Assembly (NCBI GenBank): GCA_013285985.1
Contig: JABDGR010000007.1
Span: 1-42,061, forward strand
From: Verrucomicrobiota bacterium
Lineage (GTDB): Bacteria; Verrucomicrobiota; Verrucomicrobiia; Opitutales; JABDGR01
Direction: 5' to 3'
Length of the DNA: 42,061 bases
In this document: positions 14,716 to 19,986 of the stretch, one piece after another
Position numbering within the stretch: the stretch's first letter is position 1
Layout of the letters: each line of letters opens with the position of its first letter
Translations under genes and position numbers: made by a program
Notes under the pieces: generated by a model
Databases searched by the model: none
The model's input: only the letters and a program-made list of their open reading frames with translations
What the model was told of the DNA's origin: nothing

Positions 14716-15075
14716 TCACTGCGCGAACGTCACCGTGCCAAAGGTGTTGGCGGAGATGGACAATTGGGTCGCGGACAGCACAATGGCCAGATTGGTATAA
14801 TCCTCGCCCGCGACTGGAGCGACGTTGTGCATGAGGTTGTCCGTGCTGGTTCCAATGAGGTCGGTATACACGCATTGGGTCACGGCATTTTCGAGCATGT
14901 ATTGCTGGGCGGAACTCGATATCTGGCGCAAGTTGTTGAGGACGGTCTTCGAGCGCGAATTCTGCCGCACAGCGACAAAAGTGGGGATGGCCATCGCCGC
15001 CAGCAGGCCGATGATGACGACGACAATCATGATTTCCACCAGCGTGAAGCCCCGCGTATTTCTAAGATTTTCCAT
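14716..15075 (-). CDS. Type IV pilin / pseudopilin
   Basis: 119 aa; class III prepilin signal NTRG^FTLVEIMIVVVIIGLLAAMAIPTFVAVRQNSRSKTVLNNLRQI. Confidence 0.93.
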   Translation of the reverse strand: MENLRNTRGFTLVEIMIVVVIIGLLAAMAIPTFVAVRQNSRSKTVLNNLRQISSSAQQYMLENAVTQCVYTDLIGTSTDNLMHNVAPVAGEDYTNLAIVLSATQLSISANTFGTVTFAQ

Positions 15076-15251: not shown

Positions 15252-16595
15252 TTACTTCACTCCGCTGAATTTTTCCGGCTGGGAAACCTTGGCCGGGTCA
15301 GCAGGAGCGATTTCCACCGCATAGACTTGCACCGGCCCCTGAATATTTGAGCGGAAGACGACCCATTTCTTGTCCGGCGTGATGGAGACATTCGGCTCGA
15401 TGCCGCCGCCTTGGACGCCCAGTCGCGTCTGGCCGGTGACATAATTGTGCTTGGACATATTGACGAGTTTTTCGCGGGTCACACTGCCGTCGGGTTGCAC
15501 CCGGAAAAGATTAATCCAGGCGCCGTTCGGCGAAAACGCAACCTGAGTCGGGTCGCCGCCGTCGCTGGCAAAAAGTGTGTTGTCGCGCGAGACGTTGAAG
15601 TGCACGCCCCACCAGTCGCGCTCAATGTGGTATTTAGTGAGCTTGCCCGAGTCCACGTTCACCCCGGCAATCCAGAAGTCTTTGCTGCGCGGTGTTTGCA
15701 GATCGAACCAGATGGTCTTGCCGTCGTAGCTCCAGAATTCGTGGCCGCCGATTTCCATGTCCATCTGCCGCTTGTACATCAAGCGTTGCGCGGAGCCGTC
15801 GGTGCGCACCGTCCAGATGCGATCCACCTCGTGCCAGGTGCCTTCGTGGGCGTAGAGGACGAGATGCGGGTCGGTGGGGGAAAACTGTTGATGATCAATG
15901 GAGGCATATTGGAAGCCCGTCCACGTCTGTGTGCCGGTTTTTAAATCGGTGAAAAGAAAGCCGGTGGAGGACGGGCGGGCGAGGCGCGCGGAGAGGCCGT
16001 CTTCCTTGGCCGCGGCGAATTCCTCATCCGGGGTCAGCGGAATGCCCTGGGCGATTTTGTCGCCGAACATGCGCTGGCGTTGGGGCTGGATGTTTGGCGG
16101 TGGTGGCGGCTGGGCGTGGCCCGTGGGATCCTCACCAACCAGCATGCCACCGGCGATGGTTCCGTCGCAATTCACGCCCCACACGGTGCCGGTCATGAGT
16201 TGGCGAGACGCCTTGGTGTCCACGTTCACGGCATAGAGGGCGCCGTTCGAGGTGTAGTAGAAGTCGCGTGATTTATAGGCCGCCATCAAGGGGTTGACGC
16301 GCGCGTTGCGACCATCCACCAGCCATTCGAGTTTCGGTGTGCCCTGGCCGAGGGTTTTCAGGTCCACGGACCAGATTCCGCTCGGTGCGCCAAAAATCAT
16401 TTTGTCGCCTTCCGGCGTGTAGGAATTGTAGTGGAAATAAAGACTCTGGCTGTTGTCCTCGTCAGAAATACGGATGACGCGGTGGCCGGTGTCGGGGTCA
16501 ATCCATTCGCGGGGATTATCGCCTGCGGCGGCCGGGGTGGCCGCTTGCGCGGTGGCGCAGAGCGACAGGAAAAACAGCCAGGGTAAGGGGCGCAT
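15252..16595 (-). CDS. Oligogalacturonate lyase-like (PL22-type) secreted protein
   Basis: Signal peptide MRPLPWLFFLSLCATAQA; DPDTGHRVIRISDEDNSQSLYFHYNSYTPEGDKMIF, HQQFSPTDPHLVLYAHEGTWHEVDRIWTVRTDGS, GGHEFWSYDGKTIWFDL: beta-propeller oligogalacturonide lyase pattern. Confidence 0.82.
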   Translation of the reverse strand: MRPLPWLFFLSLCATAQAATPAAAGDNPREWIDPDTGHRVIRISDEDNSQSLYFHYNSYTPEGDKMIFGAPSGIWSVDLKTLGQGTPKLEWLVDGRNARVNPLMAAYKSRDFYYTSNGALYAVNVDTKASRQLMTGTVWGVNCDGTIAGGMLVGEDPTGHAQPPPPPNIQPQRQRMFGDKIAQGIPLTPDEEFAAAKEDGLSARLARPSSTGFLFTDLKTGTQTWTGFQYASIDHQQFSPTDPHLVLYAHEGTWHEVDRIWTVRTDGSAQRLMYKRQMDMEIGGHEFWSYDGKTIWFDLQTPRSKDFWIAGVNVDSGKLTKYHIERDWWGVHFNVSRDNTLFASDGGDPTQVAFSPNGAWINLFRVQPDGSVTREKLVNMSKHNYVTGQTRLGVQGGGIEPNVSITPDKKWVVFRSNIQGPVQVYAVEIAPADPAKVSQPEKFSGVK

Positions 16596-16606
16596 GGGAA
16601 ACAAAT

Positions 16607-18055
16607 TTATTTCGCGGCTTTGGCCAGTTCAACGGCGAATACTTGCGAGCCGTGTTCTTCGCCGAGCATATTCGAGCGGAACACAATCCACTTCATGTCG
16701 GGCGTGAAGCTTACATTGGGCTCGAGTCCGTAGTCGTGATTCGCGAGGTTGACGAGGCGTTCGGCCTTGAAAGTCATGGTCTGCACATCTTCGTTGCCGA
16801 CTTTGATGGTCGCGGCGGTCGAGGGGTCAGGCGTAAATAAATATATCCACTGGCCGTTGTCGCCGCGCGCGACGCTGGTCGGGCCGCCGCCGTCGCCGGC
16901 AAACAATTTGCCGTCGGGTGAAACATTGTAATGCACGGACCACTGGTTTTTCTGCAGCGAATAACGGATATGCTGGCCGGTGGCCAAATCCATGCCGCCG
17001 ACCCAAAATTGGGTGCTTTTGGGTGTCTGCAAATCATACCAGGCGTGTTTGCCATCGGCGCCCCAGAATTCATGGCCCGCGATTTCCATGTCCATCGTGC
17101 GCTGGTGGATGAGTCTGGGCGGAGCGGGAGGTAGTTGGATTTTCTGGCCGATTTTCAAGTCATCCGAAGTCAGCCCGGCGGTGTATTTAATCATCGCAGG
17201 ATAAGTACCGTGCGCGGCGGCGATTTTTTCCAGCGTGTCGCCAGTCTGCACGGTGTAAATATCTCCTGCGACCCGGATTTGCCAGACGCGGTCCACGCGG
17301 TCCCACGAGCCTTCGTGACAATACATCAAGAGCGTGGGGTCGGTGGGGGAAAACTGCACGTGATTGAGCCAGTCAGTTTCGGCGCGGAAGAATTTTTTAA
17401 GTTCCCCGGTTTTGATGTTGATGGCGTAGAGCACCATCGGCACGAGGGCGGCCATGCGCTGCGGCAGCTGCCCGTTACCCGTCCAGGCTGGGCCGATGGC
17501 GCCGAGTTCGCCCGGCGCGGCGTCGCCCGAGCCGGCCAGCAGGGTTTCGTCAGCATTGACGGTAAAGCCCGCGCCCCAGAATAATTCATCCGGCAGTGAG
17601 CAAATTTTACGCGTCGCGCCGGTGTCGAGGTTGGTCGCCATTACGTCGGCGCCGCGCGTGTAATAGACAGTCGGCGTTTTGCGACCCATGACGATATGCG
17701 CGATGCGTTGTTCCGGCGGGGTGTTGTCATGCGTGTCAATCCGCTGCGTCGGTGTGGAGCCGGAAACCACTTTTTTGATTTCGTACGTTTTGAGATTAAT
17801 GGTCTCGATGCCGCTTGGCACCGTCACGACCACGCGGGTGCCATCGGGCGTGTAGGTGTTTTGATGGAAATACAGACTCTGCGTTTCATCTTCGCGGGAA
17901 AGGCGGATGACGCGGTGGCCGGTGTCGGGGTCAATCCATTCCGTCGGCAATTTGTCCGGCTTGGAAGCGGCGGACGGCGTGTCCGCGGCCGAAGCGTGTG
18001 CCAGCAACGCCAGCGCAGAAAACAAGAAAGCAGGGGTGCAGAAACACTTTTTCAT
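16607..18055 (-). CDS. Oligogalacturonate lyase-like (PL22-type) secreted protein with internal LysM domain
   Basis: Start at ATG 18055 (MKKCFCTPAFLFSALALLAHASAA). Same blade motifs as the neighbouring paralog (DPDTGHRVIRLSREDETQSLYFHQNTYTPDGTRVVV; HVQFSPTDPTLLMYCHEGSWDRVDRVWQIR; AGHEFWGADGKHAWYDL), interrupted by a LysM. Confidence 0.82.
   Translation of the reverse strand: MKKCFCTPAFLFSALALLAHASAADTPSAASKPDKLPTEWIDPDTGHRVIRLSREDETQSLYFHQNTYTPDGTRVVVTVPSGIETINLKTYEIKKVVSGSTPTQRIDTHDNTPPEQRIAHIVMGRKTPTVYYTRGADVMATNLDTGATRKICSLPDELFWGAGFTVNADETLLAGSGDAAPGELGAIGPAWTGNGQLPQRMAALVPMVLYAINIKTGELKKFFRAETDWLNHVQFSPTDPTLLMYCHEGSWDRVDRVWQIRVAGDIYTVQTGDTLEKIAAAHGTYPAMIKYTAGLTSDDLKIGQKIQLPPAPPRLIHQRTMDMEIAGHEFWGADGKHAWYDLQTPKSTQFWVGGMDLATGQHIRYSLQKNQWSVHYNVSPDGKLFAGDGGGPTSVARGDNGQWIYLFTPDPSTAATIKVGNEDVQTMTFKAERLVNLANHDYGLEPNVSFTPDMKWIVFRSNMLGEEHGSQVFAVELAKAAK
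17129..17257 (-). other. LysM domain inserted within the lyase propeller
   Basis: Reads YTVQTGDTLEKIAAAHGTYPAMIKYTAGLTSDDLKIGQKIQLP, in frame with the lyase; absent at the equivalent position of the adjacent paralog. Confidence 0.93.
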
Positions 18056-18092
18056 AAAAATCCCACAGAGTGCGATGTCGGCACAGTGCGAT

Positions 18093-19481
18093 TTAGGCTT
18101 TGCTGAAAGCCACATCGAGCTTGCCGTTGCTGTCGCCGATTTTTTCCGTTGGTGTGCCCATCACGTCGAGCATTGAGCGGTAGAGGTTGGTAATGGGGGT
18201 CAGCTCACCCATATGAATATGCTGGCCCGCGGCGATGGCGCCGCCGCCACGGCCCGCGAGCACCATGGGGAGGTTTTCCGGGGTGTGGTGGTTGCCGTCG
18301 CTCAAGCCGCCGCCATAGAGCACCATCGAGTTGTCGAGCAAGGTGCCGTCGCCCTCTTTCACCGACTTCATTTTTTCGAGGAAGTAGGCGTATTGTGTCA
18401 TGTGGTAGCGATTGATGATGGCGAGTTTCGTCAACTTTTCCGGGTTGTTGTTATGGTGCGACAGGTCGTGGTGGCCCTCGGAAATGCCGGACTCGAAGCC
18501 TTGCGCGGTTGCCTTGGGGTAGGGGCGGTTGCTGCCGTCGTGGCCGAGGATGAAGGTGGAGACGCGCGTGGCGTCCGTCTGGAACGCCAGGACCATGATG
18601 TCCATCATCAGGTGCGCGTGGTCTTCGAAATTATAATCGGCGAGCATCTTCAGCTGGCGCTGTTCCGGCGGCAAATCGATGATGAATTTCTCGCTGGACT
18701 CGATGCGGCGTTCGAGGTCGCGCACGGCGGAAATGTATTCGTCGAGCTTGCGCTGGTCATTGCCGCCAAGGGTGCGGCCAAGCTGGTTCGCGTCATCCAG
18801 CACGAAGTCCACCACGCTCTTGTTGTAAAGCTGGCGTTTGGCGCGGGCTTCCTTGGTGGCAGCATCGTTAGCCCCGCCAAAGAGGCGTTCAAAGGCCTGG
18901 CGCGGATCCACTTCGGGGTTCATCGGCATCGAGTCCGATTTCCAGGAAATATTGAATTGGTAGGCGCAACTGTAACCGGAGTCGCACGAGCCGGCGCGCT
19001 GGCCATGGTCGCAACTGAGTTCGAGCGAGGGCAGCTTGGTCTGGTCGCCGATGCGTTCGGCGGCAATCTGGTCCACGGAGATGCCGGCCTTGATGTCGGC
19101 CCCATTGGTCTTGCGCGGGTGGACGCCGGTGAGGTAACTGGCCGAGGCGCGGGCGTGGCCGCCGCCGCCGTCGCCCAGTTCATTGGCGTTGTTGTTGTCG
19201 AGGCTGCTGATGACGGTGATGTCTTTCTTGAAGGCGGCCAGCGGCTGGAGGGTGTAGGGTAATTCGAAATTTGGGCCGGTCGTCGTTGGCGTCCAGTAAT
19301 CCATATTTGCGCCATTGGGAATATAGATGAAGGCCATGCGCGTCGGGAAGACTTTGGCTGCGCCAGCGGTTGCGCCCAGCAAGCGGGTGGCGGGCAGCAG
19401 GGACTCGAACAGCGGCAACGCCATGACCGTGCCAAGGCCGCGCAAAAATTTCCGGCGGGGTAATTGCCAGGGGTTGCTCAT
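18093..19481 (-). CDS. DUF1552 family secreted protein
   Basis: Start at ATG 19481: MSNPWQLPRRKFLRGLGTVMALPLFESLLP (twin-arginine-like) then RMAFIYIPNGANMDYWTPT...ISSLDN...GGGHARASASYLTGVHPRKT...SVDQIAAERIG, as in planctomycete/verrucomicrobial DUF1552 proteins. Confidence 0.87.
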   Translation of the reverse strand: MSNPWQLPRRKFLRGLGTVMALPLFESLLPATRLLGATAGAAKVFPTRMAFIYIPNGANMDYWTPTTTGPNFELPYTLQPLAAFKKDITVISSLDNNNANELGDGGGGHARASASYLTGVHPRKTNGADIKAGISVDQIAAERIGDQTKLPSLELSCDHGQRAGSCDSGYSCAYQFNISWKSDSMPMNPEVDPRQAFERLFGGANDAATKEARAKRQLYNKSVVDFVLDDANQLGRTLGGNDQRKLDEYISAVRDLERRIESSEKFIIDLPPEQRQLKMLADYNFEDHAHLMMDIMVLAFQTDATRVSTFILGHDGSNRPYPKATAQGFESGISEGHHDLSHHNNNPEKLTKLAIINRYHMTQYAYFLEKMKSVKEGDGTLLDNSMVLYGGGLSDGNHHTPENLPMVLAGRGGGAIAAGQHIHMGELTPITNLYRSMLDVMGTPTEKIGDSNGKLDVAFSKA

Positions 19482-19650
19482 AAATCCGCAGGGTGGGCCA
19501 AGGGGAAATGACGGCCAGCCAAGCTGGAAAAGTAACACCCGGTGCGGGTTCCCGCAAGTCCATTTCCAAGGGTGATTCCACAAATTAAATTGCGGGCTGT
19601 TTTTGCCTTTCCCTGCGGGCTCGCGAGCGTCACAATCGGGCGTATCCCCC

Positions 19651-19986
19651 ATGAAACGAATTCTCCCCTGCCTGCTGTTTTTATTGCTGCTCTGCGGTTG
19701 CATCAGCTCAAGCCTGACGGATTACCGCTACGTCACGCTGGCGGACATCAATGCCAAGCGCAGGGCCAACGCGGCTAATCAGGCCGAATTTTACAACAAA
19801 TGGTATTACGCGGGGTCGGACGACAAATACGACTACATCTATGAATATACCAAGGGCATCTCCATAACTCCGCCCTCCCATTTTCATTACTACAAGCTAG
19901 ATAAGGGACAGATCGAAAACCTCCCCGGCGCTGGGTCTCCTTTCAATCCCGACCTGAACGCGAACCCGGAAATTTTCACCTGGTAG
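19651..19986 (+). CDS. Small putative lipoprotein
   Basis: MKRILPCLLFLLLLCGCISS: signal peptide with lipobox LLCGC; rest not recognised. Confidence 0.7.
   Translation: MKRILPCLLFLLLLCGCISSSLTDYRYVTLADINAKRRANAANQAEFYNKWYYAGSDDKYDYIYEYTKGISITPPSHFHYYKLDKGQIENLPGAGSPFNPDLNANPEIFTW

Follow-up and report, generated by a model that had tools for sequence, protein, structure and literature searches.

LysM domains usually sit at protein termini or in tandem, and the 42,061-nucleotide stretch of Verrucomicrobiota DNA analysed here (the window) raises the question of whether one of its genes genuinely carries such a domain inside the β-propeller of a PL22-family protein, as a first-pass annotation of the locus had proposed, and, if so, what the domain might do there. 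The minus-strand reading frame at 16607-18115 is open from end to end over 502 codons, and reading through it revealed neither a frameshift, a fault that the annotation had itself raised, nor an internal stop. Within this one frame Pfam identifies both Pectate_lyase22 (PF14583, E = 8.9e-13, 48.1 bits against a curated cut-off of 30) and LysM (PF01476, E = 1.7e-10), and an AlphaFold2 model agrees, confirming that the gene encodes a genuine LysM within a PL22-fold propeller. Translation likely starts at Met21 of the 502-residue frame (ATG at 18055), giving a single unbroken coding sequence of 482 amino acids at 16607-18055 (minus strand), exactly as annotated; the longer frame would extend into the tail of the gene before it (18093-19703, PF07586). 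A Sec-type signal peptide, MKKCFCTPAFLFSALALLAHASA (17987-18055, minus strand), is probable from the sequence and from a helix at residues 9-23 at the N-terminus of the model, and we infer that the protein is secreted.

The LysM match (17129-17257, minus strand; residues 287-329 of the 502-residue frame) is full-length, covering profile positions 1-43 of 43 at 41.1 bits against a cut-off of 20.9, and its nearest solved counterparts in the PDB are LysMs of LytE (4e-11), of entry 4uz2 (2.3e-9) and of an autolysin (2mkx). The complete β-α-α-β order of these domains, which AlphaFold2 reproduces across the segment, and their GDTL motif are common to the inserted LysM, which retains GDTL..IA, a glycine at 303, SD and the terminal IGQ. 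A chance LysM-like stretch was considered and rejected on the E-value, the retained consensus positions and the modelled LysM fold. The inserted domain differs from the LytE, 4uz2 and 2mkx LysMs in being nested in a hairpin and in carrying alanine (Ala313) after the second helix, where asparagine occurs in 22 of 22 compared LysMs. Asparagine at this position is typical, not strictly required; judged by sequence, its replacement may weaken or abolish ligand binding, and because it is missing the binding of GlcNAc glycans by the inserted domain is not to be assumed. The LysM stretch has a GC3 of 0.60, compared with 0.74 and 0.72 on its flanks (about the first percentile of within-gene stretches), and a poorer codon score; the lower GC3 hints mildly that it arose separately. 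No near copy of the LysM DNA was found in the approximately 50% complete genome (best match 33.7 bits), and the further LysM genes of this genome, on contigs 10 and 37, resemble the insert only moderately, so that the domain did not arise by very recent copying of a gene in the sequenced half.

The whole insertion (17126-17263, minus strand; about 46 residues, 285-330) is absent from all relatives in an alignment of 41 sequences, in which the site is occupied by a short turn, R-T-D-G-S/T-x-L-x-x-I-H-x-R-T-M, where the LysM-bearing protein reads R-V-A-G-(about 46 residues)-P-R-L-I-H-Q-R-T-M. It separates RVWQIR (17273-17290, minus strand; residues 276-281, model strand 256-261), the third strand of the interrupted blade, from RLIHQ (17102-17116, minus strand; residues 334-338, model strand 314-318), the fourth. 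D275, R276 and W278 before the insert, and R339, E344, G347, H348 and E349 after it, are among the most conserved columns of the family, indicating that the propeller sequence is intact on both sides. In the AlphaFold2 model (built with 32 sequences; mean pLDDT 85.9, pTM 0.83, with ten-residue block means of 74 to 89 over the LysM) a propeller strand ends at 261, followed by a strand at 266-268, helices at 275-282 and 286-293 and a strand at 305-307, before the propeller resumes at 314. In the model, then, the LysM falls between strands 3 and 4 of a single blade, the propeller being otherwise complete, and does not form part of the propeller itself. Foldseek comparison with the PDB returned the PL22 structures 3pe7 (E = 6e-24, TM 0.80 by target) and then 3c5m as best matches, both leading other folds by more than 10 orders of magnitude.

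Alignment to 3pe7 equates R276, H348 and H395 with R217, H242 and H287, respectively, and R276 (the first residue of the interrupted third strand) and H348 (the first of the HEFW motif at 17063-17074, minus strand) are invariant in 41 of 41 aligned sequences. From published work on 3pe7, we take Arg217 and His242 to be catalytic, the latter as the base, and the metal ligands to be H287, Q350, H353 and H355. By spacing, the last three correspond to Y462, E465 and N467 in the stretch Y-G-L-E-P-N (16715-16732, minus strand), which stands in place of the canonical Q..H.H, so that three of the four ligands are replaced and H395 is kept. The replacements are invariant or nearly so within the branch, and among 68 distinct PL22-family frames the C-terminal motif is EPN in 52 and Q..H.H in 12. 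The branch bearing Y..EPN is large; its members (L008-L042) are secreted PL22-family proteins from Verrucomicrobiota and Acidobacteriota that keep the catalytic histidine and arginine. The protein thus shares with the oligogalacturonate lyases 3pe7 and 3c5m the propeller fold, the catalytic histidine and arginine and one metal-binding histidine, and differs from them in its internal LysM, its probable signal peptide and its Y..E.N for Q..H.H. It is thus a PL22-family protein from a branch whose metal site is altered, and its catalysis on oligogalacturonate is uncertain because most of the canonical ligands are replaced. Of the earlier description as a PL22-type oligogalacturonate lyase, the family assignment therefore holds, whilst the lyase label is too firm, such activity not being assured.

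The adjacent paralog (15252-16604, minus strand; PF14583, E = 1.5e-14) lacks the insert, as the first-pass annotation had stated; at 35% identity it aligns on both sides of the LysM, where the largest gap falls. Two side-by-side PL22-family frames, as in the window, also occur at L015, and a single stretch at L031, from an Opitutae genome, has four such frames, of which three are in tandem. A purpose-made LysM profile run on the 68 PL22 frames recovered the window protein at E = 1.4e-17, with the next best above 4, and found no LysM in the other 67. A query spanning both junctions, run on overlapping sets of 384 genomes of the class and 388 of the phylum (a family query covered 384 class genomes), recovered the protein itself (296 bits) and no other sequence covering both halves; no second chimera was found in these genomes, among which the source genome is the sole member of its family. 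Partial junction matches in G413 and G436 contained no LysM when read and are not chimeras. A second chimera was likewise not found among 25 loci from the genome collection, there were no matches in viral contigs, and none was noted in 17 plasmid records, which were not gone through singly. The named relatives are mostly from Opitutae, other Verrucomicrobiota and Acidobacteriota. The EPN-branch secreted proteins of L008-L042 are 41-56% identical to the LysM-bearing protein in the alignment, share its EPN motif and occur as tandem copies in some genomes, but all lack the LysM. Titles and abstracts in the open-licence literature yielded nothing relevant on an inserted or internal LysM, or on LysM combined with oligogalacturonate lyase, and the architecture appears unreported in the literature and genomes covered here.

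What the domain does may be approached through its position. In β-propellers the strand 1-2 and 3-4 hairpins lie on one face, and the 2-3 and inter-blade loops on the other. R276 opens the third strand of its blade and H348 stands just before the first strand of the next, which in standard topology assigns the two residues to the opposite face from the insert; the LysM should therefore face away from the active-site residues, a placement read from blade topology and not from model coordinates. We consider it about an even chance (roughly 0.5) that the protein is a secreted PL22 propeller whose in-frame LysM lies on the far face and acts as a weak tether to a GlcNAc polymer. On this proposal a complete LysM, inserted at the apex of the hairpin that joins blade strands 3 and 4, would leave the propeller able to fold and would project from its far side, facing away from the active-site cleft and holding the enzyme to peptidoglycan of its own cell, or to chitin or other walls outside it, whilst the enzyme would act on pectin-derived or related uronate oligosaccharides. 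If the LysM has any function, tethering is the most likely one. Against the proposal stand Ala313, the three replaced metal ligands and the occurrence of the architecture in one known copy. More tentatively, a functional nested LysM carried on two linkers opposite the cleft might anchor a lyase of uronate oligosaccharides to peptidoglycan or chitin.

A serious rival to tethering, and one we regard as possible though somewhat doubtful, is that a LysM-coding fragment landed, in frame, in a tolerant surface hairpin, where it folds harmlessly with no selected function and is perhaps losing its binding. The singleton architecture and the alanine in place of the conserved asparagine both suit such an origin, as do the lower GC3 and poorer codon score, which fit a separate or recent arrival, and tandem paralogs are common enough in the PL22 family that one copy may vary freely. 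Weighing the other way, the LysM is otherwise full-length and high-scoring, without stop or frameshift, and the sequenced half of the genome contains no near-identical donor.

The annotation had also suggested that the insert could reshape substrate access, and a LysM that remodels the mouth of the active site, or delivers GlcNAc-containing substrate there, might alter specificity. The insert does fall between R276 and H348 in sequence, but the model, read with standard topology, sets these residues on the face opposite the strand-3/4 hairpin, the equivalents of Arg217 and His242 lying at the other ends of the interrupted strands; such a role is unlikely, and a peripheral tether is likelier than a substrate-access device because the insert sits at the strand ends away from the active-site residues. 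An assembly or binning artefact that fused part of a LysM gene with the PL22 gene is likewise unlikely, and is the reading we rate lowest: although the source is a fragmentary metagenome assembly (about 50% complete, 116 contigs) and the composition of the insert is somewhat different, an artefact would take two separate in-frame joins falling at one hairpin turn inside a 42-kb contig, and no repeated DNA elsewhere in the sequenced genome could have misled the assembler.

The LysM/PL22 protein appears to be a new domain architecture made from two known parts, in a single case, and, should its LysM prove functional, we know of no other polysaccharide lyase displayed through a hairpin-nested binding module. 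The presence of a LysM inside one hairpin of a catalytic propeller shows that this domain, its ends being close together, can serve as an insertable module, a point of interest for domain evolution and for the engineering of displayed enzymes. The protein also draws attention to the large EPN branch of secreted PL22-like proteins, whose metal site is altered and for which we know of no measurement of activity.

GH88, GH43, GH2, GH31, GDSL esterase and feruloyl-esterase-like genes neighbour the PL22 genes of relatives, and a gene for a RhaT-like rhamnose transporter lies within the window, in agreement with a role in degrading glycans that are pectin-like or otherwise contain uronate. The minus-strand gene directly upstream of the PL22 pair (18093-19703) is a DUF1552 gene (PF07586, HXXSHH). 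PSD-type genes often accompany DUF1552, and at L027 (6381-9320) one of these (DUF1585/1587/1588/1592/1595) closely follows a PL22 gene, which suggests a recurrent association of PL22 genes with DUF1552 and PSD-type genes. Just downstream of the pair, a minus-strand gene at 14716-15075 encodes a small pseudopilin-like protein with the N-terminal methylation motif PF07963.
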